Assembly (NCBI GenBank): GCA_002205965.3
Contig: NADL03000151.1
Coordinates: forward strand, 1 to 64,000
Origin: Kappaphycus alvarezii
Lineage: Eukaryota; Rhodophyta; Florideophyceae; Gigartinales; Solieriaceae
DNA: 64,000 bases
Reading direction: 5' to 3'
A program made the translations under genes and the position numbers. Shown here one piece after another: positions 1 through 58,212 of the stretch (positions within the stretch are counted from its first letter, which is position 1; each line of letters begins with the position of its first letter). The notes under the pieces are model-generated. The model did no database searches. It was not told the DNA's origin and was given only the letters and a program-made list of their open reading frames with translations.

Positions 1-2070
1 TATTAATATTTATCAGATTGGTGTCGCGTGTATCACACTGAAATTTATTTTCCTTAGACATAGCATACTTTGTGCTGTAACAATCTGTTCTTGCAGTTCA
101 GATATACCAAGAGAAGTTATTAGTGTAGATATAGTAAGGATGAGTATAGAATTTTATAAGGCTGTCTTAGTTTTACTATATGGCGAACAGTATGATATGC
201 TGAGGGTAAAATAAGATAAGCGGAGATAGCTAACCAAGAAGACTTTTAATGTTGATATATTTCGTTGCGAATGAACCAAATATTTTCTTACATAGAATAT
301 TTTAATCTGTGCCTCCAGTAGACATCTTGTGATTAATTTATCCAAGAATTGCAGTAATTCATTTCGTTTTGAGCCCTTTGTCATCCAGAAGTACAAGCAT
401 TTTCTTTCTGTACAGCAAAGCTTTTCACGTTTTCAGTATAATAGCAGAAATTTTCGTTTTGAATTTAACATCGAGTTCTTGGATATTAATGCATTTAAAC
501 AATATAAAATACTGAAAACATTTAAGGACCTATCCCAATTTTGGCTAAAAAAGGACTTTTCCGTATGAACAATCTCAAGAAGTTAAAAGTTCCCCATAGC
601 TTTCTTTTTAAGGGCAATAAAGAAAAGGCAGTTCAATTTTCCCACAAAAACATTTCGTGGCTTTAGACTTTTAAAAATTCAGGCTTCACCCAGATCAATC
701 AGCAATTTCCAAATTTTGAAACATATTTCGTCTCACTAACTTGTCTCATATTATTAAATGAGCTATGAATATTGAACATATTCGCACAAAATTTTACTTA
801 GTCTCCTTAACAGTAAATATTAGTTTACAATTCGGAAAATGGATCTAACAAGTCAATTGAATGACTTAATTAATATGCAATTTCATCATCGTTGATCTGT
901 TTCATAAGTGTAAACACAATTGAAGAAGTTTTGGAGGATCCTCAATTGCGATCAAGAATCTCATGAAATAGTTGTCTTCTGGGTCATTCCGGTTACAGTC
1001 ATTGTACTGAACACATTTCAGCTACCATTGACAGTTGTTGCGAATATATTTAATGATTTTCCGTGTAAATTATTTGTAATCTCGCTATGGGGTTTTCAAT
1101 GTTAAATTTTCCATTTTTTTGGTTCCACCAATTTGAAATATTGTCAACGCTATTTTCCACATATGCAAAAATTATCATTTAAATAGCCTAGAACCATCAT
1201 TTTAACACCGAAATAACATTTCAAATTTCGTTCTACAAAATAAGGCATTGTAGCTATTTTTCATGCGTGAACCTCTATCACACCAAAGAAAATGCCATTG
1301 GGAAACCAAATAATATTGAAAATCAGCCACAGGTAGGTATATTGCATTTAATTTACCGTATGCTAAGGAGTTAATCTTATTCTTTGACAGACCTGATATA
1401 AACTAATGTAAAAGGGGAGTAAACTTTAATTCAGAATGATACCTGGAGTCAATTTTTTTCCTAAAGTCTCTAATCGAAGGGTTTTGACAGGTTTCAGCTT
1501 CATGAAAAAGCTTTTTGTTAACAGTTTTCATTGCAAACATAAGAAGAAGGCTTTAAAATATACGTTGCGATCATTGCAACAAACAATATTGATTTTAGTA
1601 GGCTTGTCTATTTACTGTTTGGTTGAGCTTATTATGTAAATCTCTCCCTGGAAGTGGCAAAAATTTTAAAAGAGAAGATTCGACCGGAATTGCGACTCAA
1701 TTGTCCTGTAATATCTATTCTCAGACATTGAATCGGCTTCATTTTTCGCTTTCATGCTTTAACTCTGAGAATTTTTGAAAATATATAAGTAAAGTACCTA
1801 TGTCATTTCCCACTAATTAATAAATCAAATAAAGACGATAGATTTTTCAATTAATATTCCCTGAAAATTTTTCCATCGATGAAAAGAGCAATTTATTGAC
1901 GAATAAAAGGGCTTTTTATGAGTACTCGCAAGAAACCTAGTAAAAAGGAGAGTTTGTACCTTCTCAGAAATGCTTAAAAATTCCCAGATCAAAATATTCC
2001 AAAAATATTGATAATAAATCATTTGAAATCAAAAGAGATACACATATACATGATATCAGTACTTAATTCT

Positions 2071-2096
2071 CTCTTGTTCCTGTAAAGGAACAAGAG
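2071..2096. repeat. perfect 10-bp hairpin (copy 1)
   Basis: The arms CTCTTGTTCC and GGAACAAGAG are exact reverse complements around the 6-nt loop TGTAAA. The same hairpin is present unchanged at 17963-17988, 33853-33878 and 49723-49748. No open frame or T-run makes it an obvious terminator. Its role is unknown. Confidence 0.85.
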
Positions 2097-2284
2097 TAAT
2101 CCAAATATGTAATTCCGGTAAATGTTTCATCCTCACCCCTCAATGAGGCTGAAAAAAATGAAAACTTTAAATACCATAAAATTGTAGAGGAAACAATTTA
2201 CGGGATTTTACTAACCATCCACTAGACTCAATATATATTTTGAAACTTAGAAATATAGCATATAATGTCTCAAGGATAGGTTAG

Positions 2285-2377
2285 ATGGCGGTAAACAATA
2301 GTTAGTTTGGATTCAAATATCATCGTAATCTCGTAAATTCAAACCTGTATCGAAATTGGGAAAATATTTACCGCCAT
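2285..2377. repeat. 93-bp segment bounded by 11-bp inverted repeats
   Basis: ATGGCGGTAAA at 2285-2295 is inverted exactly as TTTACCGCCAT at 2367-2377. The GC-rich arms stand out from the AT-rich surroundings. The spacing suits a small foldback or MITE-like remnant, or a pair of protein binding sites. No target-site duplication is evident. Every unit carries it. Confidence 0.55.
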
Positions 2378-3640
2378 TTTATCATCGGAAAAATTCAGTA
2401 ATCCAATAATTCATTACTTATACATAAAATGAATGAAACTGATTGATTTGGGCTAATTAAAGTTATAGTGGAGAATTAAACCTCAAAGCCTATCGTCAAG
2501 ACCAAAGAGCAACCTTTAAGTTTCTAGCTATTCATGCAACTAGGATCGAATTAAATGCGTTGCAGAAGTAAAGTTCGAAATAAAACTTTTGCATTTACAT
2601 TTTTCATGTCTAATTCGGGACATCTGGGCCTGAGAAATATAATAACCACAATAATACCTTACGTGAATTCAAAAATGTTAGATTTGATGTAGTTAGGTAT
2701 GATTGCCTTTTGAACCGCATGAAATTAAAGATAGCAGCCAGAATCCTGCAGATCAATCAAATACTCCAAACCACGAAAACATAGTGGTTTTATGTAACCG
2801 TATTTTTAATTAAACAACTGCAAACTTTTCGGGACAAGTTAAGAATGTCAAGTTTAAAAGAGGAGTTTTTTTCAAAATTGATCAGACCAATCCGGCGAAA
2901 CCAAACATTCATGCTTTTACAGAAGCTCTGGTGTCTAAGAATCAGGTTCATAGAATCTAAATAACCAATTGGTTAACATTTATTACCAAGATCAAATTTC
3001 TTTGAGTTAGTTTTTTAGATACCATTTTGGTCTCCTAGTTACAAAGGCACGCCCCTCTTCCGCATACTCCCCACAAAACTGATGAATATCAGTCATGATG
3101 AACAACTGGATTTGTTAAATGATAAAATAACTCATCATCTTTGACAAATCAGATCGGAATATCTTCATTTTAAACTCTGCGAAGGGTCTAATTTGCTCTG
3201 CGAATGACATAAATATCATTTCTCAGGTATTTTAAAACTACAGATTTCAGACAATAATAAATTATTGTAAATTACTGCATCCTATAATTAGGAAGTTTCC
3301 CGAAACATGATGAAAGTATTGGAAAAATCTCAAGAGCAAATAATTATGACCATTGAACTCAAGTCAAAATTCAAAACCAAAAATAAAGTCTTCTTCCAAG
3401 GTATTTCACAAATTTTGGCCATTCACAAAGAGAATCCCTTCTAAAGATGCGGATGGATTACTAAAACTTACCTAATTATTTTTCCTTTTATTTTAATCTC
3501 TCTGATACTTCATAAGATTGAATTTGTATCAATAGCAATTCAAAGTCATCACAGCCAATAAAATAAAGTGTTATAGGTACTTCTCCAGCTAATTAGTCTT
3601 TTCCTCATCCAAAGGCTTACTCTCCAATTAAACAGATGAA

Positions 3641-3766
3641 ATGGAACTCCGGATTCGACGAATATATTTGCAGTGTGATGAAAAAGCCGCCCGACGCGCC
3701 TTCTTAGATGACTATGACATTGAGAGAGATGAAAAGGAATCGTTAGGCAAGCTTTTGAATGATTAA
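3641..3766 (+). CDS. unrecognised 41-aa coding-looking ORF, copy 1
   Basis: An ATG-to-TAA frame of 41 codons with a charged, soluble composition beginning MELRIRRIYLQCDEKAARR and ending in an acidic stretch and GKLLND. The composition is much less I/F/K/N-skewed than chance ORFs in the AT-rich arm. The frame opens at 3632 after a TAA. A pyrimidine-rich stretch ending in CAG at about 3633-3635 could be a 3' splice site, so this may be a terminal exon rather than a whole gene. I do not recognise the family. All copies are near-identical, so conservation across copies is no proof of selection. Confidence 0.3.
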   Translation: MELRIRRIYLQCDEKAARRAFLDDYDIERDEKESLGKLLND

Positions 3767-3881
3767 TAGCTTCGCTATCTATGAAGGCACGTAAGGCACC
3801 ATCTTTCCTCGCACTCCAAATCTTTTTTCTCGTAGGTGTAGCATCCCTTCATCTGCGGAGCGTTTAGTTCAGTATTTTTGA

Positions 3882-4450
3882 TTGCTCAATACTAAAGCTG
3901 ATATTGGAGACCATTCTTGTGTGTCGGGCGGCCTTAGGTTTGCGATGGATTTCTCACGAAAGATATTCGCGAATTGTATTCCGGGGGAGGAAAATAGAGA
4001 GATTTTTGTGGATTATGGTTGTATACTGAATATCCAAGGTCTGAATATCTATTCCTATTTATGCCATTTGAAGCCCCAATATCCAAACCATAAGAATCAG
4101 AGCATGATTATTCCCTGTATGTAAGTTTCACTTACTATAAAAGCGGAAATGAAGGAACAATTACCATCTGGAATAAAGGAATTCGGATAAATCAATGATA
4201 AAACGACTACATTTTAATGGATTCAAAACTGTACATATGGTAGCTCACAATGTGTAAAGCAGCCGAAATATCAACACGTTTGCGATCTAAAATACTGTTT
4301 AGCGGAATCTATTCGAGCCTCGAGCAATATCGATTAGCAGGACCTAAGAATATAGACCATCGTAGTCCAGATAAATTTAAAATGGAGAAAATTAAGCTCG
4401 TTAGAATTGACGGCTTCGCAAGAAGCCATTCGGAAGATCTATACATCTAA
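3882..4450 (+). other. two short unrecognised frames, possible degenerate coding cluster
   Basis: Copies 2-4 share a 73-codon frame (19797-20018, 35686-35907, 51556-51777) whose first half reads like protein, including SGGLRFAMDFSRKIFANC. In copy 1 a missing G near 3912 changes its first residues. About 130 bp downstream an ATG-started 66-codon frame (4250-4450; also 20144-20344, 36033-36233, 51903-52103) ends in a basic, charged segment. Near its end lies a 6-bp hairpin with a GCAA loop (4412-4427). Together with the 41-aa frame upstream these may be exons or decayed pieces of one gene. Nothing is recognisable, and chance is a real alternative. Confidence 0.2.
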
Positions 4451-4980
4451 CAGCCTCCAAACATAAGTTAGGAGAGCCTTATTGTATCTAAAATATTCAG
4501 TGAGTCATACTGTCAACGTAAAGAATAAGTTAATCCTGCACACGCCATTGCACCAGGCTCGGATGTGACTAATATTGAATCGCTATGTACACTACGAGAG
4601 CCTAATATGTACGATTCCTCTTTTACAATTACCATGGCTCTCTAGGGAAGGAGGTCTAGAACTTGTGTTATATTATAGTCTTCTATTTATCCGATAGGGG
4701 TCTATGTACCTCAAGTAAATGAAACTGAACGAGAAATCATATGGTAGAGGCGCCTTGAAGACAAAATGTCCAGTTTCTGAGCAGGCTTCTGTCCAGTATG
4801 TTCAACAGTGAAAAATTTGCCGCCCTCTGACTCAGTGTCAAAACTCACTGCATAAATTATCAGAAATGTCGCTAGTACCAGTACGTGGTAGCCAAGGGGA
4901 AAAAACCAGCATGAAGCACATATCTTTTTGCCTTTAAAGTCTTAAGATCAGTCAAAAACTGCTGTTAGTACGAAACTGGT

Positions 4981-5900
4981 TCTCCTAAAACTTCCTGTTT
5001 CCTTCATCCCGGGAGCCATTGTTCACCTCTTCTTCTTCACTCTAATCATCCTACTTTTTCCTTCAAACGAAATTCTAAATTCCATTTTACATTACGAATT
5101 CAAGCTCATTTCGCGACTCCATTTTTTATTTTATGTCTGAATATTTGATCCTCCTTTTTCGAAAATAAACCCTTCAACTCTTGATCCAATTCGCCCTCCG
5201 AAGTCAATTCCTATATTTTATCAGACAGACTTTTTTGCCCCCAAATTCATGCAAATGAAAAGCACTGGAATCGTCCCGCATATCTTTTAGGCCAAATCGT
5301 TGAAAATTACCAAAACATTACCCCTAATAAAATTACTATAGCAACGGGGTTGAAGAAACACTCCTACCATCACTCAATTCATCAGCTCACCCGCGCTCTC
5401 CCTTTATTTTTGATCAACATGATCCATTTCCGTCCTTCCCTCAAAATCAAGAAATAAACAAAAGCCCGGCGTCGCATTAACGGCCTGGCTCTGATGGCTA
5501 ATGAGATAAAGGAACTTAATAATTACATGAAGAGGATGGAATGGTAACTCGTTCGGGAGTGTGCTCGTCGTAAATTTGTGGAGGGAGTGGACGGGGAGAG
5601 GGAGGCTGAAAATGATGTGGGAAGATCAGAAGATGAGAGATTCTGGATAGACTAGTGGGATCCATTGCTGTACAACTGTGTGATATTTGCTGTGGTAGAC
5701 GAAAAGGCGAGTGAGGGTGTGATCATAATCTAGGGCTCTTTTTTTTGGGAATAGAGCGGACTTCGAGGGTCTTTTGGAGAGATTAGAGGGCTCTGATATG
5801 TCCAAGGAGGCTATGTATCCTTTTGGGCCGTTACACAGGATTATTAGGGACTGAATTTGGGCACGGATATTTTGGCGGAGTTTTTTGGCTCTGGCCGTGA
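4981..5900. promoter_or_regulatory. strand-composition switch: pyrimidine-rich then G/A-rich
   Basis: From about 4981 to 5460 the plus strand is strongly C/T-rich, with many CTTC, TCCT and CCCTT runs. From about 5510 to 5900 it is G/A-rich, with GGAGGG, GGGGAGAGGG and GAAGATGAGAGA. The switch falls at 5460-5500. In fungi and some algae C/T-rich tracts lie upstream of transcription starts, and an ATG-started frame begins at 5419. A transcription-coupled or replication-coupled skew switch is another explanation. The zone recurs in every unit. Confidence 0.4.
5419..5655 (+). pseudogene. coding-like frame interrupted by two TAA codons
   Basis: A single frame from the ATG at 5419 to the TAG at 5653-5655 reads like protein across two in-frame TAA codons, at 5455-5457 and 5545-5547. 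Its middle part is basic, around KARRRINGLALMANEIKEL. Its end is acidic and charged, closing DERFWID. Each TAA would be CAA (Gln) after one C-to-T change. This could be a decayed gene, a non-standard code, or coincidence. Other remnants in the window end at TAA and TAG normally, which argues against a recoded code. I do not recognise the family. The same frame is present in copy 2 and appears in the other units. Confidence 0.3.
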
Positions 5901-6265
5901 GGACTAGGTCGAGATATTTGTTCTGATACTCTCTACTATTAGTATTTCTCGTCTACAAGATTCTTTGAATGTATTTGAAGGTATTTAGTATGTTTTTGCG
6001 AGTTTAGGGTTAGCTGAAAGTTCTATATGAGCAGAGTAAGCTGGTACCTCTAGGAGAGGTTAAGTAAGTTACCAGAAAACCTCAATCGCAGGTCCAAGTA
6101 GTCGCAAAGTTGATAGACTCCGTAGAACCTAAAAAGCACTTCGATTGCGTTAGTCACTGAGCATTGGTGGTAGGACTTGCTCCTTGTATACCCATATATT
6201 GCCCGTTAGCCCCCGTTCTTACCAAAATAGAATTCTCCCACAACTATATTTGGGTAGCACTTTTG

Positions 6266-6667
6266 TCATTTTGAACACATCCGTTCCGAGAGAGTTTGTT
6301 CTGAGAGTCTCACCCTCGCTGATTTATTTTTATCAGCTATACAGGAAACTACCCATTCATGGAACAATTCAAGACGATGTAGGGATCGATACGCGAGAAA
6401 AGTTATCTTAGCGGGTTGGTGTGTCTTGTTGAGACATCTATATATTCGCGAACAATAGAAGCACGGTAGCAGGTACCCAGATACAGACTTATACGGCACA
6501 GAGTTAGTTTTGAGGCGGAAAATGTATTTACACACGTCGACAAAGTGGCGAACAGCGTAATGCCAGCGTTGTTGAACCAGATTTGCCTCCAAGAGAACTG
6601 CCCTTGAGAGAACTCTGACGACAATGTATACTCCATTTAAATGGCGACTGTCTTTTCTTTCGATCAA
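6266..6667 (-). other. unrecognised minus-strand frame, variable between copies
   Basis: In copy 1 a 133-codon minus frame is open. In copies 2 and 3 it is cut to 87 codons (22298-22561, 38188-38451), and in copy 4 a TG insertion shifts it again (54062-54322). The differences all fall in one GGTGTG run near 6415. No motif is recognisable. The copy-to-copy disruption argues against a maintained protein. Confidence 0.15.
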
Positions 6668-6814
6668 GTGTGGTAGTCGTTATTCGTTATCTCTAACGGA
6701 GTTTCCATAGGCGCAGCCTTCGGGGATATTTCTTATCGACTCTTCGCGGCTCTTCAATAGATTTCTTCGACGTTGGTGCATCGCCCCCTGATCTAATGGG
6801 AACCCGTTCTGATT

Positions 6815-7090
6815 TCAGAACTTGGACTGAGTTGTTGACCTCGCGACCAACTCTTCAACCACAGCTGTAATGGCGGTAATATTACTGTGCGAGATCAATT
6901 CCTTTGCAACGGCACGTTGCAATAATGGTCTCCTCTAATGCGTCCAGTTTGTTGAATGGCCACCATACATCTTTCTAAATATAGGGAAGACGTCTGCTAT
7001 CTCCTTTGTTACACAACTCCTTCCGAGCTCTCCACGTAAACACACACCCTGTTCCTCCAGATTACAGTATTCAGTGTAGGACGGTTCACA
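6815..7090 (-). pseudogene. degenerate coding-like segment with one in-frame TAG
   Basis: Read on the minus strand, one frame stays coherent from about 7090 to a TGA at 6817-6815, broken only by a TAG at 6936-6934. The first half (about 51 residues) is rich in charged residues and contains ELGRSCVTKEIADVF. The second half (about 38 residues) contains RAVAKELISHSNITAITAVV. The composition is protein-like, but the family is not recognised. It lies downstream of the minus-strand retrotransposon end A and could be part of another decayed element. Repeated in all units. Confidence 0.3.
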
Positions 7091-7449
7091 AGCCGACCTT
7101 GGGCCAGGTTTCAACCATCAAATACTGATTTGATCAGGTACTCGGTAGTCCAAGTTCTATCCTCGATAAATCTTCGTCCAGATACTTGAACCCGTCATAA
7201 AGTCTATTTGTTTAGCGAAAAACATACAAGTGTAATGTCATTATGTATAGATATTGTTTCGCGACTCTAATAATACTGGTTACAAGAACTCTCCAAACTC
7301 CGTTTAGATTCCCCCGGTAGCTAGCGCATTAAAAGCGACAGTAGTAAATAGACTTTAAACGCGAGAAAACAAAAAACACGAGGATATGTATTTTTGATAC
7401 ATTTACTCATTAATTTTCTTCAATACTTGAAAAGGGCCACTAAAGTAGA

Positions 7450-8310
7450 CTAGCTTTGGAGCGGGAGGCAAACTTCTGCATGTTGCGGGGTACGATCAAT
7501 CGCTGAAGCTGCACACGTGGACCAAATTGCATAGCTGACCTTTTGATAAAGCCGAGAGGATACCTTCGCCCTAGAGCTTCTGATACGGGACGCGATTGCA
7601 GCCGCATATTCGTCGACCATCTTGGATATGGTCTCCGATGGGCATCCCAGCGAATCAAAGGCTGGCGGGACAAACTGCCAGCCGAGAAGCGGGCGTCCCG
7701 GTGAAGTATGGCCAGGAATGGCGGCGATTTTGGTTGCAAAGTCTCTCAGTTTCCGTCGTTCTGCCGCATTGGCGGCGGCGCTCGCTTCCCGGGCTCCGTT
7801 GGATAGGAAGCACTGTTGGAAAGGTGAGGAGACTGTGATGTCATACGCAACCGGGAGAGAGAGCGTATGATTTTCCGGAGAAGTAGTCGAGTGGACGAGT
7901 ATGTCAGCAGGTCGGGCGTCCAGTCCGGGAAGTAAATACGGGACTTCATAGTGGACGCCAGCTCCAGCGGCTTTGAACAGGTCTTTGCCGAGCAATTTTG
8001 CCACAGCTTCGTGGCGGTTCTTCCAACCGAGACCTTTGTTACACAGGTCAGCGGCATGGTCGCCGAGGTGGTCCATGGGCGCCTTGCATTCCACGCAAAG
8101 GAGCGGGACCGTTTCGTCGAAGACGGGGACTCCTAAGTGGCGCCGCAGCATCATTGACCACACATCATCGTATATGTGGGTGACCACAGACGGATGGACA
8201 GTGAGGAATGCCGTAGCAGGTGTATGCAAAAAAGCGTTACGGCGGATGCGTTGACGAATGTCGGGTTCAGAGTGTGACGAGGGGCAGGATATGTAACTAC
8301 ATGTTCCACG
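7450..8310 (-). pseudogene. non-LTR retrotransposon C-terminal region A, copy 1
   Basis: The minus frame is open from just inside a TGA at 8313-8311 to a TAG at 7452-7450, about 286 codons. It shows LRRHLGVPVF, then a zinc-knuckle-like C-x2-C-x9-H-x4-C (CVEC...GDH...C), a conserved-looking RHEAV, then RPADILV and YDITV about 35 residues apart, and a long Ala/Arg-rich helical tail. This order matches the C-terminal end of non-LTR retrotransposon polyproteins with a restriction-like endonuclease, where RPxD and DxTV supply acidic active-site residues. No reverse transcriptase domain lies upstream, so the element is 5'-truncated. Copy 1 is the only unit with this frame uninterrupted. Confidence 0.7.
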
Positions 8311-8600
8311 TCAAACAAAAGGTATTAAAATATTAAAACATTCAGCAGAATCGCGTCTTATCTCGCAGACCGTTCCTCGAGACCAAAGCTGACCTTGAGA
8401 TTAGGCAAGTGGCGTTCTAGCTACTGCGTAACTGTTTCGCTGTCTGTAAAATATGGTATTTGTTGTGCGTGGTGCCCTCGCCTCGCACAGGAGAAGGCAC
8501 AGAAGAGTTCGACCGGAAGATGAAGGTCTACGTTCGAACATTGGCAGGGAGATTACTGTGCTCTGAAGAGTTCCGAGAATTCCAGTTGCCAGACAAACCC

Positions 8601-9480
8601 AAGGACGCGAAAACCCATCTATTTGGATCGGGCTCATCGCCGCGAACAACATCGCGGCCGCGGCAGTCTGGGCTTCTTATTCATCCTCTAACAAGCTTTG
8701 CAAGACCTTGCTCCCAGTTCCTATTAATTAAGGAGCTGGGAACATATGAAACAGTTGAAAATGCTCATCGGAGGTGGTCGACCTCTTGCCTGCCGTCCAG
8801 GATTATCCCGTTCAGTGTAATTTGCGCAATAAAAACACCATCGAAAAGACCTTGACGGACTCAATCCATGAGGCAGTACAAGAAGGATTCCGCTTGAGGA
8901 CTCCAGGATGCAGGCGTTTCGCACGTCTATGGCCCTCACGGATGCTAAAGAATGAGTGTACTGCCCCCATATCACGGACTCCAGACAACCATTGAACCTC
9001 GAGAGTTCTCGGTGTGGCTTCAATACTACTGTCAGTCACACTTTTTCACCCTGACACGCCATGCCAGAGAAGGAATTGCCCGGTAAAACTCGATATACGC
9101 GGCGATCATCTCATACACTGCTTTCTTGGAGCCCATAGAATCAACCGACATGATCGCCAAGTCAGCTTTCTCGCAAAAGAACTCTCAAGAGCTGCTCGTC
9201 ATTCTGTCGTGGAGCCACGCCATGATCTATACCGCTCAAGACCGGAAATCCGAGCAATGGGAAACAGCGGGGGGCGACTTTCTTGATGTCACTTTCGTGA
9301 ATCCCCTCGCTCCCTCCAACAGGAGAGTGAGGGCCTTCAATCCGATGTCCTATCTGAATGCGGCGCGAAATGCATAGCAGAGAAGGTATCAATTTTGTAT
9401 CGCGACCTCCACCAGAGGTAGGCTCGTGCCTGTGCCAATCTCCACTCTTCGACGTAGGCAACCGGATGCATGCGCGGTGC
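8601..9480 (+). pseudogene. non-LTR retrotransposon C-terminal region B, copy 1
   Basis: A plus-strand, multiply frameshifted remnant. In order it shows GLIAANNIAAAAVWASY (like the GLGLR...A-AA-ASY segment after the reverse transcriptase), then C-x4-C-x9-H-x3-C with LDIRGDH (zinc knuckle), RHDRQVSF, RPEIRAMG, and finally DFLDVTFVNPLAPSNRR in another frame. The last frame change falls at the GGGGGG run near 9270. This order is established for non-LTR retrotransposon polyproteins, the last block being the endonuclease-like region. It lies head-to-head with region A and belongs to a clearly different family. Confidence 0.7.
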
Positions 9481-9485
9481 TAAAC

Positions 9486-9596
9486 GGGGGGAAGTTTGGG
9501 TGCTTTTGCTCTAGGAAGATATATTCGATTTATCCGAAAGTTTTCCAGACAACCACAATCGACTCAAAAAGCTGTGCCGACACAGTAATGGGGATG
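9486..9596 (+). repeat. dispersed repeat E (GTTTGGGTG element), in units
   Basis: A ~110-bp block starting with a G-run then GAAGTTTGGGTGCTTTT and continuing through GGAAGATATATTCGAT and TTTTCCAGACAACCA. It recurs at 25377-25487, 41264-41374 and 57141-57251 as part of the units. It also occurs in the flank, inverted at 58071-58175 and direct at 58908-59000, with a weaker match at 10424-10450. It probably marks the tail or an internal part of a transposon family. Confidence 0.6.
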
Positions 9597-9652
9597 GAAC
9601 TTCGCTCCCAAAATTCCCGCTACTGCAAGGAAGTTGGGATCGTCGCCCTCGT

Positions 9653-10166
9653 CTAGCATCCCCTCCTCTACTAGGTTCCCAACTTATCTGGGCATTCGGA
9701 GTCCCCCGTGGTACGAATGGACATTTACATACCCGCTGCATACGGGCTTCACAGTACCGATATCGCCGTCGACGTTACTGTTGCCCACCCCTCCGCACGC
9801 CGCCACATTTCGCCAAGTACGGTTACTGCCGCGCCGCCGCGACACTCGCAGAGCGCGAGAAACATCGTCATTACGGCACTTACTGCAACCGAAACGATAT
9901 CCTCCTCTCCCCCGTCGGGATTGATATCTATGGCGCCTTGGGCGACGACGGTAACGCTTTACCGCCGCCTTGCTTCCTTCGCTGCTTCCCGTCGCGGTTC
10001 CTCCCCTCAAGTGGAGCTCCGCGACTTCGTTACCCGTTTTGCATTTAGCCTCCAAATAATGCAGGCGCGACAAGTTTCTACCCGCCGCCCGCATCCGTAG
10101 TTAATTTATGAATACCCTCCGCACGCCTCTGTGCGACATTGTACGACAAATAAAGATCTACCACCA
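9653..10166 (+). pseudogene. non-LTR retrotransposon 3' end C with tail, copy 1
   Basis: Plus-strand frames contain DIAVDVTVAHPSA, then LAEREKHRHYGTYC and SPVGIDIYGALG, matching the last part of non-LTR polyproteins (DVTV-x-HP, Ala-rich helix, FxPxGxDIYG). Frame changes lie at about 9830 and later. A 3' UTR-like tail follows, with AATAAA at 10149-10154 and ending in TCTACCACCA at 10166. Similar tails occur in the flank, so this marks the true 3' end of the family. Confidence 0.65.
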
Positions 10167-10464
10167 GCTCCGAAGGTGGAGAGGTGCTGGAGGGAGCGAA
10201 AAGCTAGGTGGCGATGGGGGCGTGCTGATGGATCCGATCGCCGTCACAATCTGCTCCGCGATCGTCTTTTTCCTCAACTCACTACTTTCGCCATCGCTCT
10301 CCGCCCCGTATGGGAAAGATGAAATTTCTCAGGATGTCTTTCTCTCTTCTTCCCTTTGTCGTCGCCTCGATCTCTTCTTCGGCGACCCTCAGTTCGCTCC
10401 TCGCCCACATGGACATGATGGGGGGAAATGTTTGAGTGCTTTAATTTTTGAAAGATGTGGTCGG

Positions 10465-10686
10465 TTAGGATATGATGTGACTGCGATCAGACCCCATTCC
10501 GTACCCTGCAGTCGTTCCGCAGTCGCCGATGTCACCGCTATTCATTCTCAATCTGAATCTGTCAAGAACGGCAGGTATCGCACCATTTGTGATGATCTTG
10601 ATATGGATTTCTACCCGATTGGTTTAGATATCTACGGCTCTATTGGCCCTGGGACAGATGCTGGGCTGCATCGCATTTCCGAGTAA
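10465..10686 (+). pseudogene. non-LTR retrotransposon C-terminal region D, copy 1
   Basis: The frame ends VKNGRYRTICDDLDMDFYP then IGLDIYGSIG and a TAA at 10684-10686. This parallels the C region's EKHRHYGTYC...GIDIYGALG, and upstream GYDVTAIRPHS parallels DVTVAHPS. It is therefore a second, diverged copy of the same polyprotein end, inserted or duplicated directly after the C tail. The G-run and GTTTGAGTGC block at 10424-10450 just upstream resembles repeat E. Confidence 0.6.
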
Positions 10687-41258: not shown

Positions 41259-41430
41259 TAAACGGGGGGAAGTTTGGGTGCTTTTGCTCTAGGAAGATAT
41301 ATTCGATTTATCCGAAAGTTTTCCAGACAACCACAATCGACTCAAAAAGCTGTGCCGACACAGTAATGGGGATGGAACTTCGCTCCCAAAATTCCCGCTA
41401 CTGCAAGGAAGTTGGGATCGTCGCCCTCGT

Positions 41431-41933: not shown

Positions 41934-42220
41934 GCTCCGAAGGTGGAGAGGTGCTGGAGGGAGCGAAAGCTAGGTGGCGATGGGGGCGTGCTGATGGATC
42001 CGATCGCGTCACAATCTGCTCCGATCGTCTTTTTCCTCAACTCACTACTTTCGCCATCGCTCTCCGCCCGTATGGGAAGATGAAATTTCTCAGGATGTCT
42101 TTCTCTCTTCTTCCTTTGTCGTGCCTCGATCTCTTCTTCGGCGACCTCAGTTCGCTCCTCGCCACATGGACATGATGGGGGAAATGTTTGAGTGCTTTAA
42201 TTTTTGAAAGATGTGGTCGG

Positions 42221-42441
42221 TTAGGATATGATGTGACTGCGATCAGACCCCATTCCGTACCTGCAGTCGTTCCGCAGTCGCGATGTCACCGCTATTCATT
42301 TCTCAATCTGAATCTGTCAAGAACGGCAGGTATCGCACCATTTGTGATGATCTTGATATGGATTTCTACCCGATTGGTTTAGATATCTACGGCTCTATTG
42401 GCCCTGGGACAGATGCTGGGCTGCATCGCATTTCCGAGTAA
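42221..42441 (+). pseudogene. non-LTR retrotransposon C-terminal region D, copy 3
   Basis: Same as region D at 10465-10686, but single-base losses near 42261 and 42282 and a gain near 42301 move it out of frame between GYDVTAIRPHS and the DIYG motif. Confidence 0.55.
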
Positions 42442-45400: not shown

Positions 45401-48400
45401 CACTTCTTCCCTTACTTTGTTCTTTCAAACTTTTGTTTCTCGCAAACTTATGTAATACAGACAACTCAGGTTTGATGAAGTTGGGTAATCAGTGGGATTT
45501 TCGTCTAACTGAGCACGTTAATATTATATATCACTGTGCCACGAATAAAATGAATTATGGAACTTCTGCAATCCTTTTAGATTTCGTGAAAAATATTTTA
45601 AATATCAATGCATAAAAAAGAATGAAATGACTGCAAACTGTGAGCCATTTTGGCGAAGATAGTTATTACTAACCGGAAATCCCGGTTTACAAAGGATCTT
45701 TTCAAGCACTGCAGTGTATAGCTGAAAACAATACAGCAAAAATGTTTTGGACTCATTCCAGCTGGGACATTTAAATGTATACTGTCACTCTACACAGCGA
45801 GGCGAAAATTAAATGTTTTTGAGCGAAACATTACCCGAGCGAAGCAGAAAAATGAAGTATCAGGAAAAAATCATAACTTAGAAATAAACGAGGGCTCCAT
45901 CATTTTACCAACATTTGTCAACTGATGGGTACAAAGAAAAGAAGAAATATAACAAGCTCTCCCCTTTAGTCATTTTCCCTCTTGATTTCAATTAAAAGGT
46001 GGTAGCTGGGAGTATTTATAATTTTTTTAAAGGAAAGGAAAGTATGCGAGTTAATTTCTCCCTAGTAACCATTGATAATGACCTATAGATGATCTCAGGG
46101 GCAGTAAATGAGCAAAAGTCAAAGTTTTTATTCTCAATCTTGCGTGCTTAAATTTTCGAACTCACTATATCGAAGCAATTATTCCTTTAAATGAAACCAC
46201 GCAATATAAACGGCAATGGTGTAGTCATCAATCTTCTTTCAATTTCCAAAGTACTTCGTCTAGCCTGTTCTACGTACCTAGTTCTCCTTTTGCTTCATGT
46301 TATCATATTACAAGCGTAAGGAGAAGAAATTGCGTATGCTAGTTTCCCTTGAAAAAATTTACGTTGTTGTCATAATTTGAAACATTCTATTCCGCAATTA
46401 TGTTTTTTTATCCTGCATTGCAATATTAACTGTAGATAATTATCGGATTTGTATTACGAAACTGAGGACATAATGTATCTTTTAAGGTCATCCGTATACC
46501 TGATATTTGACTCACTGTGGCAGAAAATGAAGGGATATACAAATTGAAAGATCCTTGCACCTTCAATTCAATGACACTACTGTACATATGCACTACAAGT
46601 ATTCTACTATATAGACCTGCGTTATTTAAAAATACCTAGTAGTTATTTAGGTTTTTTTTCTGGGTAATACATAAAAATTAGCGCTAGAAACAACTCAACA
46701 GAGGCATCTTTCTCTATAATGCCCGGAAAATACGGGTCTGATTTAGTGATACGCATTTGAACAAACTATTCAATTTTTTTTGAAATTTCTGTTTCAGGAA
46801 TAGTGCGCACTCAAAGTTTAAAATATATGTATTGTTATAGCATGTCGTCAAAGGCAGGTAGTTATACCAGCTAAGAGTATTCTCAAATTTCTAGAAAATG
46901 TTGCTTCATACGATAATTTAACCTAACTTTCTTTTAAAAGAATTCAGAGAAAGACGAAGTTGTTTGATTCTTAATTATCCAGGATTATTTTCATTTAGCA
47001 TAGTTTAATCCGATTTCGAACGTTTGCTATCATTTTTCAAATATATGCCCGAAGGAAGGAAGATTATTGTATTGAACAATGTAGCTGACTCACCGCAACA
47101 AATGTAAAGATAGTCGGAACATAGAGTTTACATAAAGAAAGTGGCGAAGGATTCCCGGAAATATACATTATTTCCGCAACCCACAATCATTCCTGTTTCA
47201 TGTTCGAAAGTCCAATTTTACCGTAGTACCTGTAGATTTTTCCCATATCAAGGAAGCGCTACAATATTTTGACCATTTTTATTGCAAATTCTTTACATGG
47301 GAAAGAAAGAATAATATATTTGATGGAGCAACAAGGTAAATTTGGAACATTGTGAAACTAAAAGTTTTGGAAGGAAACAAAATAGCTAATAAATTGTTCC
47401 AAAGAGTGAAAATCTCTCAAAATTTCGGTGTTACAATACAGCATGTTAGAAAAGTGATTCAAATACAAATTTATTGTCTTGTTATAAAACTGAGTAGCAG
47501 CAACCAGTTCCAATTTGAATTCAAAATAATTACTATTTTAATTTTCAGAAATACGTGGGTGCTATATTTTGATATGAAAAACAATGCTAAAAATTCCGTA
47601 GAGACAACAGCAGATGCATTAATTGCAGCAACACAGACCGCTTTTTCTGTTCTATTAATATTTATCAGATTGGTGTCGCGTGTATCACACTGAAATTTAT
47701 TTTCCTTAGACATAGCATACTTTGTGCTGTAACAATCTGTTCTTGCAGTTCAGATATACCAAGAGAAGTTATTAGTGTAGATATAGTAAGGATGAGTATA
47801 GAATTTTATAAGGCTGTCTTAGTTTTACTATATGGCGAACAGTATGATATGCTGAGGGTAAAATAAGATAAGCGGAGATAGCTAACCAAGAAGACTTTTA
47901 ATGTTGATATATTTCGTTGCGAATGAACCAAATATTTTCTTACATAGAATATTTTAATCTGTGCCTCCAGTAGACATCTTGTGATTAATTTATCCAAGAA
48001 TTGCAGTAATTCATTTCGTTTTGAGCCCTTTGTCATCCAGAAGTACAAGCATTTTCTTTCTGTACAGCAAAGCTTTTCACGTTTTCAGTATAATAGCAGA
48101 AATTTTCGTTTTGAATTTAACATCGAGTTCTTGGATATTAATGCATTTAAACAATATAAAATACTGAAAACATTTAAGGACCTATCCCAATTTTGGCTAA
48201 AAAAGGACTTTTCCGTATGAACAATCTCAAGAAGTTAAAAGTTCCCCATAGCTTTCTTTTTAAGGGCAATAAAGAAAAGGCAGTTCAATTTTCCCACAAA
48301 AACATTTCGTGGCTTTAGACTTTTAAAAATTCAGGCTTCACCCAGATCAATCAGCAATTTCCAAATTTTGAAACATATTTCGTCTCACTAACTTGTCTCA

Positions 48401-51293
48401 TATTATTAAATGAGCTATGAATATTGAACATATTCGCACAAAATTTTACTTAGTCTCCTTAACAGTAAATATTAGTTTACAATTCGGAAAATGGATCTAA
48501 CAAGTCAATTGAATGACTTAATTAATATGCAATTTCATCATCGTTGATCTGTTTCATAAGTGTAAACACAATTGAAGAAGTTTTGGAGGATCCTCAATTG
48601 CGATCAAGAATCTCATGAAATAGTTGTCTTCTGGGTCATTCCGGTTACAGTCATTGTACTGAACACATTTCAGCTACCATTGACAGTTGTTGCGAATATA
48701 TTTAATGATTTTCCGTGTAAATTATTTGTAATCTCGCTATGGGGTTTTCAATGTTAAATTTTCCATTTTTTTGGTTCCACCAATTTGAAATATTGTCAAC
48801 GCTATTTTCCACATATGCAAAAATTATCATTTAAATAGCCTAGAACCATCATTTTAACACCGAAATAACATTTCAAATTTCGTTCTACAAAATAAGGCAT
48901 TGTAGCTATTTTTCATGCGTGAACCTCTATCACACCAAAGAAAATGCCATTGGGAAACCAAATAATATTGAAAATCAGCCACAGGTAGGTATATTGCATT
49001 TAATTTACCGTATGCTAAGGAGTTAATCTTATTCTTTGACAGACCTGATATAAACTAATGTAAAAGGGGAGTAAACTTTAATTCAGAATGATACCTGGAG
49101 TCAATTTTTTTCCTAAAGTCTCTAATCGAAGGGTTTTGACAGGTTTCAGCTTCATGAAAAAGCTTTTTGTTAACAGTTTTCATTGCAAACATAAGAAGAA
49201 GGCTTTAAAATATACGTTGCGATCATTGCAACAAACAATATTGATTTTAGTAGGCTTGTCTATTTACTGTTTGGTTGAGCTTATTATGTAAATCTCTCCC
49301 TGGAAGTGGCAAAAATTTTAAAAGAGAAGATTCGACCGGAATTGCGACTCAATTGTCCTGTAATATCTATTCTCAGACATTGAATCGGCTTCATTTTTCG
49401 CTTTCATGCTTTAACTCTGAGAATTTTTGAAAATATATAAGTAAAGTACCTATGTCATTTCCCACTAATTAATAAATCAAATAAAGACGATAGATTTTTC
49501 AATTAATATTCCCTGAAAATTTTTCCATCGATGAAAAGAGCAATTTATTGACGAATAAAAGGGCTTTTTATGAGTACTCGCAAGAAACCTAGTAAAAAGG
49601 AGAGTTTGTACCTTCTCAGAAATGCTTAAAAATTCCCAGATCAAAATATTCCAAAAATATTGATAATAAATCATTTGAAATCAAAAGAGATACACATATA
49701 CATGATATCAGTACTTAATTCTCTCTTGTTCCTGTAAAGGAACAAGAGTAATCCAAATATGTAATTCCGGTAAATGTTTCATCCTCACCCCTCAATGAGG
49801 CTGAGAAAAAATGAAAACTTTAAATACCATAAAATTGTAGAGGAAACAATTTACGGGATTTTACTAACCATCCACTAGACTCAATATATATTTTGAAACT
49901 TAGAAATATAGCATATAATGTCTCAAGGATAGGTTAGATGGCGGTAAACAATAGTTAGTTTGGATTCAAATATCATCGTAATCTCGTAAATTCAAACCTG
50001 TATCGAAATTGGGAAAATATTTACCGCCATTTTATCATCGGAAAAATTCAGTAATCCAATAATTCATTACTTATACATAAAATGAATGAAACTGATTGAT
50101 TTGGGCTAATTAAAGTTATAGTGGAGAATTAAACCTCAAAGCCTATCGTCAAGACCAAAGAGCAACCTTTAAGTTTCTAGCTATTCATGCAACTAGGATC
50201 GAATTAAATGCGTTGCAGAAGTAAAGTTCGAAATAAAACTTTTGCATTTACATTTTTCATGTCTAATTCGGGACATCTGGGCCTGAGAAATATAATAACC
50301 ACAATAATACCTTACGTGAATTCAAAAATGTTAGATTTGATGTAGTTAGGTATGATTGCCTTTTGAACCGCATGAAATTAAAGATAGCAGCCAGAATCCT
50401 GCAGATCAATCAAATACTCCAAACCACGAAAACATAGTGGTTTTATGTAACCGTATTTTTAATTAAACAACTGCAAACTTTTCGGGACAAGTTAAGAATG
50501 TCAAGTTTAAAAGAGGAGTTTTTTCAAAATTGATCAGACCAATCCGGCGAAACCAAACATTCATGCTTTTACAGAAGCTCTGGTGTCTAAGAATCAGGTT
50601 CATAGAATCTAAATAACCAATTGGTTAACATTTATTACCAAGATCAAATTTCTTTGAGTTAGTTTTTTAGATACCATTTTGGTCTCCTAGTTACAAAGGC
50701 ACGCCCCTCTTCCGCATACTCCCCACAAAACTGATGGAATATCAGTCATGATGAACAACTGGATTTGTTAAATGATAAAATAACTCATCATCTTTGACAA
50801 ATCAGATCGGAATATCTTCATTTTAAACTCTGCGAAGGGTCTAATTTGCTCTGCGAATGACATAAATATCATTTCTCAGGTATTTTAAAACTACAGATTT
50901 CAGACAATAATAAATTATTGTAAATTACTGCATCCTATAATTAGGAAGTTTCCCGAAACATGATGAAAGTATTGGAAAAATCTCAAGAGCAAATAATTAT
51001 GACCATTGAACTCAAGTCAAAATTCAAAACCAAAAATAAAGTCTTCTTCCAAGGTATTTCACAAATTTTGGCCATTCACAAAGAGAATCCCTTCTAAAGA
51101 TGCGGATGGATTACTAAAACTTACCTAATTATTTTTCCTTTTATTTTAATCTCTCTGATACTTCATAAGATTGAATTTGTATCAATAGCAATTCAAAGTC
51201 ATCACAGCCAATAAAATAAAGTGTTATAGGTACTTCTCCAGCTAATTAGTCTTTTCCTCATCCAAAGGCTTACTCTCCAATTAAACAGATGAA
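42442..51293. other. AT-rich arm across the copy 3/copy 4 border
   Basis: Same content as 10687-19533, including the hairpin at 49723-49748. No supportable gene is seen. Confidence 0.7.
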
Positions 51294-51446
51294 ATGGAAC
51301 TCCGGATTCGACGAATATATTTGCAGTGTGATGAAAAAGCCGCCCGACGCGCCTTCTTAGATGACTATGACATTGAGAGAGATGAAAAGGAATCGTTAGG
51401 CAAGCTTTTGATGATTAATAGCTTCGCTATCTATGAAGGCACGTAA
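51294..51446 (+). CDS. unrecognised ORF, copy 4, altered C-terminus
   Basis: Same frame as at 3641-3766, but one A is missing near 51411. The reading frame therefore changes after residue 39 and runs 11 codons further to a TAA at 51444-51446, giving 50 residues. Three of four copies have the shorter form. The change is as likely a consensus error as a real variant. Confidence 0.28.
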   Translation: MELRIRRIYLQCDEKAARRAFLDDYDIERDEKESLGKLLMINSFAIYEGT

Positions 51447-54400
51447 GGCACCATCTTTCCTCGCACTCCAAATCTTTTTTCTCGTAGGTGTAGCATCCCT
51501 TCATCTGCGGAGCGTTTAGTTCAGTATTTTTGATTGCTCAATACTAAAGCTGATATTGGAGACCATTCTTGGTGTGTCGGGCGGCCTTAGGTTTGCGATG
51601 GATTTCTCACGAAAGATATTCGCGAATTGTATTCCGGGGGAGGAAAATAGAGAGATTTTTGTGGATTATGGTTGTATACTGAATATCCAAGGTCTGAATA
51701 TCTATTCCTATTTATGCCATTTGAAGCCCCAATATCCAAACCATAAGAATCAGAGCATGATTATTCCCTGTATGTAAGTTTCACTTACTATAAAAGCGGA
51801 AATGAAGGAACAATTACCATCTGGAATAAAGGAATTCGGATAAATCAATGATAAAACGACTACATTTTAATGGATTCAAAACTGTACATATGGTAGCTCA
51901 CAATGTGTAAAGCAGCCGAAATATCAACACGTTTGCGATCTAAAATACTGTTTAGCGGAATCTATTCGAGCCTCGAGCAATATCGATTAGCAGGACCTAA
52001 GAATATAGACCATCGTAGTCCAGATAAATTTAAAATGGAGAAAATTAAGCTCGTTAGAATTGACGGCTTCGCAAGAAGCCATTCGGAAGATCTATACATC
52101 TAACAGCCTCCAAACATAAGTTAGGAGAGCCTTATTGTATCTAAAATATTCAGTGAGTCATACTGTCAACGTAAAGAATAAGTTAATCCTGCACACGCCA
52201 TTGCACCAGGCTCGGATGTGACTAATATTGAATCGCTATGTACACTACGAGAGCCTAATATGTACGATTCCTCTTTTACAATTACCATGGCTCTCTAGGG
52301 AAGGAGGTCTAGAACTTGTGTTATATTATAGTCTTCTATTTATCCGATAGGGGTCTATGTACCTCAAGTAAATGAAACTGAACGAGAAATCATATGGTAG
52401 AGGCGCCTTGAAGACAAAATGTCCAGTTTCTGAGCAGGCTTCTGTCCAGTATGTTCAACAGTGAAAAATTTGCCGCCCTCTGACTCAGTGTCAAAACTCA
52501 CTGCATAAATTATCAGAAATGTCGCTAGTACCAGTACGTGGTAGCCAAGGGGAAAAAACCAGCATGAAGCACATATCTTTTTGCCTTTAAAGTCTTAAGA
52601 TCAGTCAAAAACTGCTGTTAGTACGAAACTGGTTCTCCTAAAACTTCCTGTTTCCTTCATCCCGGGAGCCATTGTTCACCTCTTCTTCTTCACTCTAATC
52701 ATCCTACTTTTTCCTTCAAACGAAATTCTAAATTCCATTTTACATTACGAATTCAAGCTCATTTCGCGACTCCATTTTTTATTTTATGTCTGAATATTTG
52801 ATCCTCCTTTTTCGAAAATAAACCCTTCAACTCTTGATCCAATTCGCCCTCCGAAGTCAATTCCTATATTTTATCAGACAGACTTTTTTGCCCCCAAATT
52901 CATGCAAATGAAAAGCACTGGAATCGTCCCGCATATCTTTTAGGCCAAATCGTTGAAAATTACCAAAACATTACCCCTAATAAAATTACTATAGCAACGG
53001 GGTTGAAGAAACACTCCTACCATCACTCAATTCATCAGCTCACCCGCGCTCTCCCTTTATTTTTGATCAACATGATCCATTTCCGTCCTTCCCTCAAAAT
53101 CAAGAAATAAACAAAAGCCCGGCGTCGCATTAACGGCCTGGCTCTGATGGCTAATGAGATAAAGGAACTTAATAATTACATGAAGAGGATGGAATGGTAA
53201 CTCGTTCGGGAGTGTGCTCGTCGTAAATTTGTGGAGGGAGTGGACGGGGAGAGGGAGGCTGAAAATGATGTGGGAAGATCAGAAGATGAGAGATTCTGGA
53301 TAGACTAGTGGGATCCATTGCTGTACAACTGTGTGATATTTGCTGTGGTAGACGAAAAGGCGAGTGAGGGTGTGATCATAATCTAGGGCTCTTTTTTTTG
53401 GGAATAGAGCGGACTTCGAGGGTCTTTTGGAGAGATTAGAGGGCTCTGATATGTCCAAGGAGGCTATGTATCCTTTTGGGCCGTTACACAGGATTATTAG
53501 GGACTGAATTTGGGGCACGGATATTTTGGCGGAGTTTTTTGGCTCTGGCCGTGAGGACTAGGTCGAGATATTTGTTCTGATACTCTCTACTATTAGTATT
53601 TCTCGTCTACAAGATTCTTTGAATGTATTTGAAGGTATTTAGTATGTTTTTGCGAGTTTAGGGTTAGCTGAAAGTTCTATATGAGCAGAGTAAGCTGGTA
53701 CCTCTAGGAGAGGTTAAGTAAGTTACCAGAAAACCTCAATCGCAGGTCCAAGTAGTCGCAAAGTTGATAGACTCCGTAGAACCTAAAAAGCACTTCGATT
53801 GCGTTAGTCACTGAGCATTGGTGGTAGGACTTGCTCCTTGTATACCCATATATTGCCCGTTAGCCCCCGTTCTTACCAAAATAGAATTCTCCCACAACTA
53901 TATTTGGGTAGCACTTTTGTCATTTTGAACACATCCGTTCCGAGAGAGTTTGTTCTGAGAGTCTCACCCTCGCTGATTTATTTTTATCAGCTATACAGGA
54001 AACTACCCATTCATGGAACAATTCAAGACGATGTAGGGATCGATACGCGAGAAAAGTTATCTTAGCGGGTGGTGTGTGTCTTGTTGAGACATCTATATAT
54101 TCGCGAACAATAGAAGCACGGTAGCAGGTACCCAGATACAGACTTATACGGCACAGAGTTAGTTTTGAGGCGGAAAATGTATTTACACACGTCGACAAAG
54201 TGGCGAACAGCGTAATGCCAGCGTTGTTGAACCAGATTTGCCTCCAAGAGAACTGCCCTTGAGAGAACTCTGACGACAATGTATACTCCATTTAAATGGC
54301 GACTGTCTTTTCTTTCGATCAAGTGTGGTAGTCGTTATTCGTTATCTCTAACGGAGTTTCCATAGGCGCAGCCTTCGGGGATATTTCTTATCGACTCTTC

Positions 54401-55094
54401 GCGGCTCTTCAATAGATTTCTTCGACGTTGGTGCATCGCCCCCTGATCTAATGGGAACCCGTTCTGATTTCAGAACTTGGACTGAGTTGTTGACCTCGCG
54501 ACCAACTCTTCAACCACAGCTGTAATGGCGGTAATATTACTGTGCGAGATCAATTCCTTTGCAACGGCACGTTGCAATAATGGTCTCCTCTAATGCGTCC
54601 AGTTTGTTGAATGGCCACCATACATCTTTCTAAATATAGGGAAGACGTCTGCTATCTCCTTTGTTACACAACTCCTTCCGAGCTCTCCACGTAAACACAC
54701 ACCCTGTTCCTCCAGATTACAGTATTCAGTGTAGGACGGTTCACAAGCCGACCTTGGGCCAGGTTTCAACCATCAAATACTGATTTGATCAGGTACTCGG
54801 TAGTCCAAGTTCTATCCTCGATAAATCTTCGTCCAGATACTTGAACCCGTCATAAAGTCTATTTGTTTAGCGAAAAACATACAAGTGTAATGTCATTATG
54901 TATAGATATTGTTTCGCGACTCTAATAATACTGGTTACAAGAACTCTCCAAACTCCGTTTAGATTCCCCCGGTAGCTAGCGCATTAAAAGCGACAGTAGT
55001 AAATAGACTTTAAACGCGAGAAAACAAAAAACACGAGGATATGTATTTTTGATACATTTACTCATTAATTTTCTTCAATACTTGAAAAGGGCCA

Positions 55095-55965
55095 CTAAAG
55101 TAGACTAGCTTTGGAGCGGAGGCAAACTTCTGCATGTTGCGGGGTACGATCAATCGCTGAAGCTGCACACGTGGACCAAATTGCATAGCTGACCTTTTGA
55201 TAAAGCCGAGAGGATACCTTCGCCCTAGAGCTTCTGATACGGGACGCGATTGCAGCCGCATATTCGTCGACCATCTTGGATATGGTCTCCGATGGGCATC
55301 CCAGCGAATCAAAGGCTGGCGGGACAAACTGCCAGCCGAGAAGCGGGCGTCCCGGTGAAGTATGGCCAGGAATGGCGGCGATTTTGGTTGCAAAGTCTCT
55401 CAGTTTCCGTCGTTCTGCCGCATTGGCGGCGGCGCTCGCTTCCCGGGCTCCGTTGGATAGGAAGCACTGTTGGAAAGGTGAGGAGACTGTGATGTCATAC
55501 GCAACCGGGAGAGAGAGCGTATGATTTTCCGGAGAAGTAGTCGAGTGGACGAGTATGTCAGCAGGTCGGGCGTCCAGTCCGGGAAGTAAATACGGGACTT
55601 CATAGTGGACGCCAGCTCCAGCGGCTTTGAACAGGTCTTTGCCGAGCAATTTTGCCACAGCTTCGTGGCGGTTCTTCCAACCGAGACCTTTGTTACACAG
55701 GTCAGCGGCATGGTCGCCGAGGTGGTCCATGGGCGCCTTGCATTCCACGCAAAGGAGCGGGACCGTTTCGTCGAAGACGGGGACTCCTAAGTGCGCGCCG
55801 CAGCATCATTGACCACACATCATCGTATATGTGGGTGACCACAGACGGATGGACAGTGAGGAATGCCGTAGCAGGTGTATGCAAAAAAGCGTTACGGCGG
55901 ATGCGTTGACGAATGTCGGGTTCAGAGTGTGACGAGGGGCAGGATATGTAACTACATGTTCCACG
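55095..55965 (-). pseudogene. non-LTR retrotransposon C-terminal region A, copy 4
   Basis: Equivalent to region A at 7450-8310. A one-base gain near 55793 changes the frame just upstream of the zinc knuckle, and a lost G near 55118 alters the last residues. Between these the 217-codon frame 55095-55748 is intact and carries the RPAD and DITV motifs. Confidence 0.68.
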
Positions 55966-56255
55966 TCAAACAAAAGGTATTAAAATATTAAAACATTCAG
56001 CAGAATCGCGTCTTATCTCGCAGACCGTTCCTCGAGACCAAAGCTGACCTTGAGATTAGGCAAGTGGCGTTCTAGCTACTGCGTAACTGTTTCGCTGTCT
56101 GTAAAATATGGTATTTGTTGTGCGTGGTGCCCTCGCCTCGCACAGGAGAAGGCACAGAAGAGTTCGACCGGAAGATGAAGGTCTACGTTCGAACATTGGC
56201 AGGGAGATTACTGTGCTCTGAAGAGTTCCGAGAATTCCAGTTGCCAGACAAACCC

Positions 56256-57134
56256 AAGGACGCGAAAACCCATCTATTTGGATCGGGCTCATCGCCGCGA
56301 ACAACATCGCGGCCGCGGCAGTCTGGGCTTCTTATTCATCCTCTAACAAGCTTTGCAAGACCTTGCTCCCAGTTCCTATTAATTAAGGAGCTGGGAACAT
56401 ATGAAACAGTTGAAAATGCTCATCGGAGGTGGTCGACCTCTTGCCTGCCGTCCAGGATTATCCCGTTCAGTGTAATTTGCGCAATAAAAACACCATCGAA
56501 AAGACCTTGACGGACTCAATCCATGAGGCAGTACAAGAAGGATTCCGCTTGAGGACTCCAGGATGCAGGCGTTTCGCACGTCTATGGCCCTCACGGATGC
56601 TAAAGAATGAGTGTACTGCCCCCATATCACGGACTCCAGACAACCATTGAACCTCGAGAGTTCTCGGTGTGGCTTCAATACTACTGTCAGTCACACTTTT
56701 TCACCCTGACACGCCATGCCAGAGAAGGAATTGCCCGGTAAAACTCGATATACGCGGCGATCATCTCATACACTGCTTTCTTGGAGCCCATAGAATCAAC
56801 CGACATGATCGCCAAGTCAGCTTTCTCGCAAAAGAACTCTCAAGAGCTGCTCGTCATTCTGTCGTGGAGCCACGCCATGATCTATACCGCTCAAGACCGG
56901 AAATCCGAGCAATGGGAAACAGCGGGGGGCGACTTTCTTGATGTCACTTTCGTGAATCCCCTCGCTCCCTCCAACAGGAGAGTGAGGGCCTTCAATCCGA
57001 TGTCCTATCTGAATGCGGCGCGAAATGCATAGCAGAGAAGGTATCAATTTTGTATCGCGACCTCCACCAGAGGTAGGCTCGTGCCTGTGCCAATCTCCAC
57101 TCTTCGACGTAGGCAACCGGATGCATGCGCGGTG
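56256..57134 (+). pseudogene. non-LTR retrotransposon C-terminal region B, copy 4
   Basis: Same remnant as at 8601-9480 and, by the reading frames, essentially identical to copy 1, including the frame change at the G-run before DFLDVTF. Confidence 0.68.
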
Positions 57135-57306
57135 CTAAACGGGGGGAAGTTTGGGTGCTTTTGCTCTAGGAAGATATATTCGATTTATCCGAAAGTTTTC
57201 CAGACAACCACAATCGACTCAAAAAGCTGTGCCGACACAGTAATGGGGATGGAACTTCGCTCCCAAAATTCCCGCTACTGCAAGGAAGTTGGGATCGTCG
57301 CCCTCG

Positions 57307-57823
57307 TCTAGCATCCCCTCCTCTACTAGGTTCCCAACTTATCTGGGCATTCGGAGTCCCCCGTGGTACGAATGGACATTTACATACCCGCTGCATACGG
57401 GCTTCACAGTACCGATATCGCCGTCAACGTTACTGTTGCCCACCCCTCCGCACGCCGCCACATTCGCCAAGTACGGTTACCGCAGGCGCTTCCGCGACAC
57501 TCGCAGAGCGCGAGAAACATCGTCATTACGGCACTTACCGCAACCAAAACGATATCCTCCTCTCCTCCGTCGGGATTGATATCTATGGCGCCTTGGGCGA
57601 CGACGGCAAGGGTTTTTTCCGCCGTCTTGCTTCCTTCGCTGCTTCCCGTCGCGGCTCCTCCCCTCAACAGGAGCTCCCCTACTTCGTTACCCGTTTTGCT
57701 TTTAGTCTCTAAATAATGCAGGCGCGACAGGTTTCTACCCGCCGCCCGCATCCGTAGTTAATTTATGAATACCCTCCGCACGCCTCTGTGCGACATTGTA
57801 CGACAAATAAAGATCTACCACCA
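57307..57823 (+). pseudogene. non-LTR retrotransposon 3' end C, chimeric, at array edge
   Basis: Up to about 57425 this equals the unit version. Beyond it the sequence is a related but distinct copy with roughly 20 differences in 400 bp, for example GACGGCAAGGG for GACGGTAACGC and CAACAGGAG for CAAGTGGAG. This version keeps a frame from SSVGIDIYGALGDDG through RRLASFAASRR to a TAA near 57711, followed by the AATAAA tail. It is therefore less decayed than the unit version. Confidence 0.65.
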
Positions 57824-58175: not shown

Positions 58176-58212
58176 CTTCAGCAGAAGATGCCGGATTGTC
58201 ACAAACTTTTAC

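Follow-up and report, generated by a model that had tools for sequence, protein, structure and literature searches.

A tandem array of a 15.9-kb unit in Kappaphycus alvarezii appears to be a recent segmental duplication bordered by a retroelement tail

The window analyzed here is the first 64,000 nucleotides (1-64000) of contig C150, which is 204,546 bp long and belongs to a Kappaphycus alvarezii assembly of 336.0 Mb and 884 contigs. Self-BLAST of the window returned direct repeats of one family at a match level far above chance: 1-41933 matched 15897-57823 at 99.695% (22 mismatches, 84 gap openings), 1-26057 matched 31783-57823, and 1-10166 matched 47653-57823. The array has a period of ~15.89 kb, comprises 3.64 head-to-tail copies with a right edge at 57823, and is thus a tandem duplication in the sense of two or more near-identical head-to-tail copies. 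This confirmed an original prediction, made from the letters alone, of at least 3.6 tandem copies of a 15.9-kb unit. The array reaches base 1, the end of C150, and 3.64 copies is a minimum; a leftward continuation, as predicted, can fairly be inferred from this contact, although no sequence is assembled there. Recent amplification or homogenisation, also predicted, is supported by the 99.7% match between copies. The features of the window are as follows.

1..10166, + strand: U0, the leftmost unit, truncated by the contig end (self-BLAST, contig start)
10167..26057, + strand: U1, the duplicated segment A..B (self-BLAST, copy alignment)
26058..41933, + strand: U2 (self-BLAST, copy alignment)
41934..57823, + strand: U3, the terminal copy, ending at the right edge of the array (self-BLAST, copy alignment)
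5044..6335, no strand assigned: old repeat, 65-74% to many contigs (contig search)
7450..8310, - strand: open frame of 286 aa (ORF, no Pfam match)
10222..10862, + strand: older dispersed element, ~75-88% to many contigs, in blocks 10222-10420 and 10468-10862 (contig search)
10900..20900, no strand assigned: AT-rich patch of ~10 kb, ~30-38% GC, present in every unit (GC profile, contig search)
9616..10166, + strand: junction element copy, 551 bp, 3' end ...AATAAAGATCTACCACCA, without poly-A; the next unit starts directly after it
25507..26057, + strand: junction element copy at the end of U1 (pairwise comparison)
41394..41933, + strand: junction element copy at the end of U2 (pairwise comparison)
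57271..57823, + strand: terminal element copy at the right end of the array (copy alignment, pairwise comparison)
57942..64000, no strand assigned: right flank, in pieces collinear with contig C73 next to its unit copy (C73 comparison)

The GC content of each unit climbs from about 31% to 54% and then drops back; 1-kb windows from 11001 to 21000 lie at 30.5-38.2%. Repeats (5044-6335, 10222-10862, and 9616-10166) sit in the GC-rich part. Contig searches scored 40 candidates each. Among the matches listed, 10167-15900 had three in C150 and one on contig C73, and 1-7000 had four in C150 and one on C73. The AT-rich part had no long match beyond these two contigs among the matches listed, and the same matches included no other carrier of 10167-15900 or 1-5000.

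Six-frame Pfam searches of 10167-20128 and 21060-26057 (20129-21059 was left out) at E<=0.5 found no family above its cut-off; the sole row, Antimicrobial25 (E 0.28, 11.7 bits against a cut-off of 27), fell far below. No Rfam family reached the gathering score, and ARAGORN found no tRNA. The 286-aa frame, which by motif we take to resemble the C-terminal portion of proteins of non-LTR retroelements, had no match in Pfam. The gene search relied on Pfam only, so that genes belonging to no Pfam family would escape it; within this scope, the unit is apparently gene-free. The predicted content of the unit was supported: retroelement ends and AT-rich arms and, in the regions scanned, no recognisable host gene. 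An array of rDNA, tRNA, or another known RNA was ruled out by the lack of Rfam and ARAGORN matches. An inserted mitochondrial genome, suggested by unit size alone, was likewise rejected, neither rRNA nor tRNA having been found.

The element at 9616-10166 has at least 41 full-length matches outside C150 at 95-97% (40 candidates scored), whose 3' ends fall within 8 bases of one point. The outside copies that were read (L006-L008 and pieces on C73) end in ...AATAAAGATCTACCACC(A) or a close variant and lack poly-A. L006 (= L011), L007, and L008 have in common 50 bp upstream of the position equivalent to 9616 that are missing from the array copy, and hence the array copy is 5'-truncated. The border element is probably the tail of a high-copy non-LTR retroelement. 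The last base of the array, 57823, is the 3' end of this element, and the right border therefore lies inside a dispersed repeat. Further partial copies of the tail occur near the right edge, at 57880-57941 and, inverted, at 61674-61884. Elsewhere in the assembly, six copies of the tail, five of them direct and at ~925-bp spacing, lie within 5.6 kb (C121:162682-168247), possibly another tandem array.

When U0-U3 were aligned, 27 columns showed substitutions, and there were 54 indel runs, each 1-3 bases long. Four of the substitution columns, at the end of U2, are an alignment artefact beside a 3-base gap. Twenty-three are real: two of these (22954 and 54071) fall outside the element, and the other 21 lie at 57426-57730 in the terminal element. 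Many of the indels (uncounted) are beside short homopolymers and resemble consensus noise, and the frame breaks in polymerase genes described below point the same way. Upon pairwise comparison, the terminal element was identical to the U0 junction element at 528 of 550 sites, and all 22 differing sites fell at element positions 156-458 of 551; up to position 155 the two agree in substitutions. The U1 and U2 junction elements scored 0.998 and 0.991 against that of U0. Given that differing sites begin at 156, the 3' parts of the junction and terminal elements would be of different origin, with a switch at or before 156. We also noted that U3-specific substitutions are absent from the final 93 bp of the element in the U0-U3 alignment. 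Identity to L006-L008 is 0.971-0.975 for the junction element and 0.951-0.957 for the terminal one. However, two copies on C73, L032 and L035, are marginally closer to the terminal element (0.942 and 0.840) than to the junction element (0.938 and 0.835), and so nearness to the family separates the two poorly.

C73 (429,747 bp) carries 10167-23213 once, in one minus-strand block (199461-186381) at 87.4% over 13,190 columns. Unit pieces from 24180 to 25505 come after this block at 91-95%, and next comes the sequence of the window from 57942 on, its order and orientation unchanged; each contig also has stretches of its own. Collinearity extends to C150:84000 = C73:160431 at 84-90%. The passage from unit to flank on C73, at 176119-176126, contains neither the element nor the equivalent of window 57824-57941. 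On the sequence comparison, the right element came in on the C150 side, unless it was cleanly lost from C73. Next to A on C73 the sequence is, from 37 bp on, a different dispersed repeat. The right flank thus adjoins the unit in this relative too, where the unit occurs once; this indicates that the unit and this flank are old neighbours, that C73 keeps one copy, and that the array is an expansion in place of a single-copy segment. A chimeric right border was ruled out, as C73 has the same flank beside its single unit. An element-tail piece at C73:174425-174625 separates two pieces of the flank that are adjacent in C150 (window 59031/59035), and the family has therefore inserted on the C73 side too. 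The right flank in C150 also contains GTACA/TACAG pentanucleotide runs (60966-61003 and 61900-61926). The AT-rich stretch 62726-64000 has frames that resemble the gag region of Copia-type LTR retrotransposons; Pfam searches of that stretch gave only rows below the cut-offs.

Between the unit and C73, 1435 of 12,943 aligned positions are mismatched. Identity along the 13 kb is mostly even (0.81-0.96 per 250 bp), the most conserved windows being 22417-22916 (0.95-0.96), 10417-10666 (0.944), and 11417-11666 (0.94). Mismatch autocorrelation was small at all 12 lags; it was highest at lag 6 (0.029) and lag 3 (0.021), and stood at 0.003 at lag 9 and 0.009 at lag 12. Of 250 mod-3 windows, the best had an uncorrected p of 0.009. 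This comparison gives no clear sign of coding, while falling short of proving that there is none. A host gene in the arms was rejected on the lack of a Pfam family in the regions scanned, the mostly even divergence, and the lack of clear codon periodicity.

The state of the assembly was gauged from RNA polymerase largest-subunit genes, which matched on seven contigs. Six of these (L049-L053 and L055) form three pairs, at 97.6%, 99.4%, and 99.8%; by best solved structure one pair is Pol III and one Pol I, and by elimination the third is Pol II. The assembly therefore keeps two versions apart for these three genes. Conserved sequence is broken in frame in four of the six eukaryotic fragments, pointing to a noisy assembly or consensus. 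We take the seventh match, L054 (C556:81260-81685), to be a fragment of a bacterial-type rpoC, and its 301-kb contig would belong to a symbiont, a contaminant, or an organelle. Upstream of the polymerase genes, the paired contigs differ at 8 of 3004 columns at one locus and at 75 of 1666 at a second, with further pieces at 21/478 and 18/138. Judged against these two loci, C73 may represent either a haplotype that has diverged strongly or an old segmental duplicate.

Collectively, these comparisons suggest that the array is a recent tandem segmental duplication of a known, ordinary kind, and that the most likely route was unequal crossover between direct copies of the retroelement tail. A 15.9-kb single-copy segment would have undergone recent tandem amplification at its own site on one of two diverged chromosome copies. 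On each side, the original segment would have had a direct copy of the high-copy 3' tail, of which we see the right one; the left border lies outside the assembly, and C73 has a different repeat beside A. Unequal crossing-over of the left copy with the right one would produce a tandem duplication with a hybrid element at the junction, made of the 5' part of the right copy and the 3' part of the left copy, and would leave an untouched right copy at the end of the array. The difference between junction and terminal elements, together with the near-identity of the units elsewhere, fits such a crossover. Later unequal exchange between the long identical repeats would have raised the number to at least 3.64 copies, if the assembled copies are real, and kept the units alike. 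Against this account stands the final 93 bp without U3-specific substitutions, a feature that one exchange would not by itself lead us to expect; gene conversion could instead have altered the terminal element. Taken as a whole, amplification in place by unequal crossover between flanking element copies, followed by further exchange, is in our view the probable history of the array.

The crossover account, an assembly artefact, and duplication by another route are mutually exclusive readings. The assembler might have looped a single genuine copy, with an element copy on either side, into false repeats: the array abuts a contig end, the assembly is noisy, with paired versions of three polymerase genes and frame breaks, the units differ mainly by short indel runs as consensus noise would have it, and a false join at the element would yield the identical hybrid pattern. 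Yet an element of 551 bp, with versions 96% alike, would seem a short basis for a misjoin of long reads, each copy has small differences of its own and so the copies were not simply pasted, and the true neighbour of the unit on C73 shows that the right edge is no chimera. We consider such an artefact unlikely, though a contribution from assembly looping is the chief doubt about the array. Rather less likely is a duplication that arose through a replication-based process, through end-joining, or when an excised circle inserted; the element would then lie at the border by chance, and gene conversion would have changed the terminal copy later. A left element missing from the assembly and a last 93 bp free of U3-specific substitutions would fit this course of events, which sits poorly with a right edge that coincides exactly with a high-copy element's 3' end and with 21 of 23 real substitution columns inside the border element.

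A functional reading is compatible with the duplication mechanism. A non-coding RNA, a small-RNA cluster, a structural role, or an undetected gene, its dosage held up by selection, would be in keeping with the near-identical units, with a 13-kb part still collinear in C150 and C73 with few indels, with the better conserved windows, and with autocorrelation peaks at lags 6 and 3 (lags 9 and 12 show none). The otherwise even divergence from C73, the uncorrected p of the best mod-3 window, the lack of a Pfam or Rfam family, and the one copy on C73 all weigh against a functional array, which we regard as very improbable. Less probable still is the specific case of a gene-free AT-rich segment selected as an amplified non-coding array on one of the two diverged chromosome copies, for instance as a source of non-coding or small RNA or as a structural element of the chromosome.

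The unusual class of array proposed in the original prediction was not supported by our results. The right edge and the only substitution cluster both lie inside one dispersed retroelement tail, and C73 has a single-copy relative whose right flank is the same, which together point to a plain tandem segmental duplication. Tandem segmental duplication via dispersed repeats is a well-known kind of event. Macrosatellites such as D4Z4 and DXZ4 consist of multi-kilobase tandem units in tens of copies, polymorphic in number; the array resembles them in its multi-kilobase tandem units and differs in the few copies seen here, the single copy on C73, and the lack of a known unit family. Like duplications arising by non-allelic homologous recombination, the array has long, direct, near-identical units, a border in a high-copy element, junction and end elements that differ, and a single-copy relative elsewhere; it differs in that the left element is unassembled, there are at least 3.64 copies, and no gene was detected in the unit. 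One study describes non-allelic crossover between homologous stretches as leading to gain and loss of copies, and names the 17.1-kb GL7 duplication (PMC6904753). Gene-bearing tandem copy-number variants such as this one have a similar unit size and tandem order, whereas in the array no gene was found and we propose no dosage effect.

By itself, the array alters no view of genome biology. It would serve as a compact example of a dispersed retroelement tail seeding a tandem duplication, in which the junction and end elements can still be told apart. If reads confirm the array, it would also provide an apparently gene-free locus at which to measure copy-number change and homogenisation.
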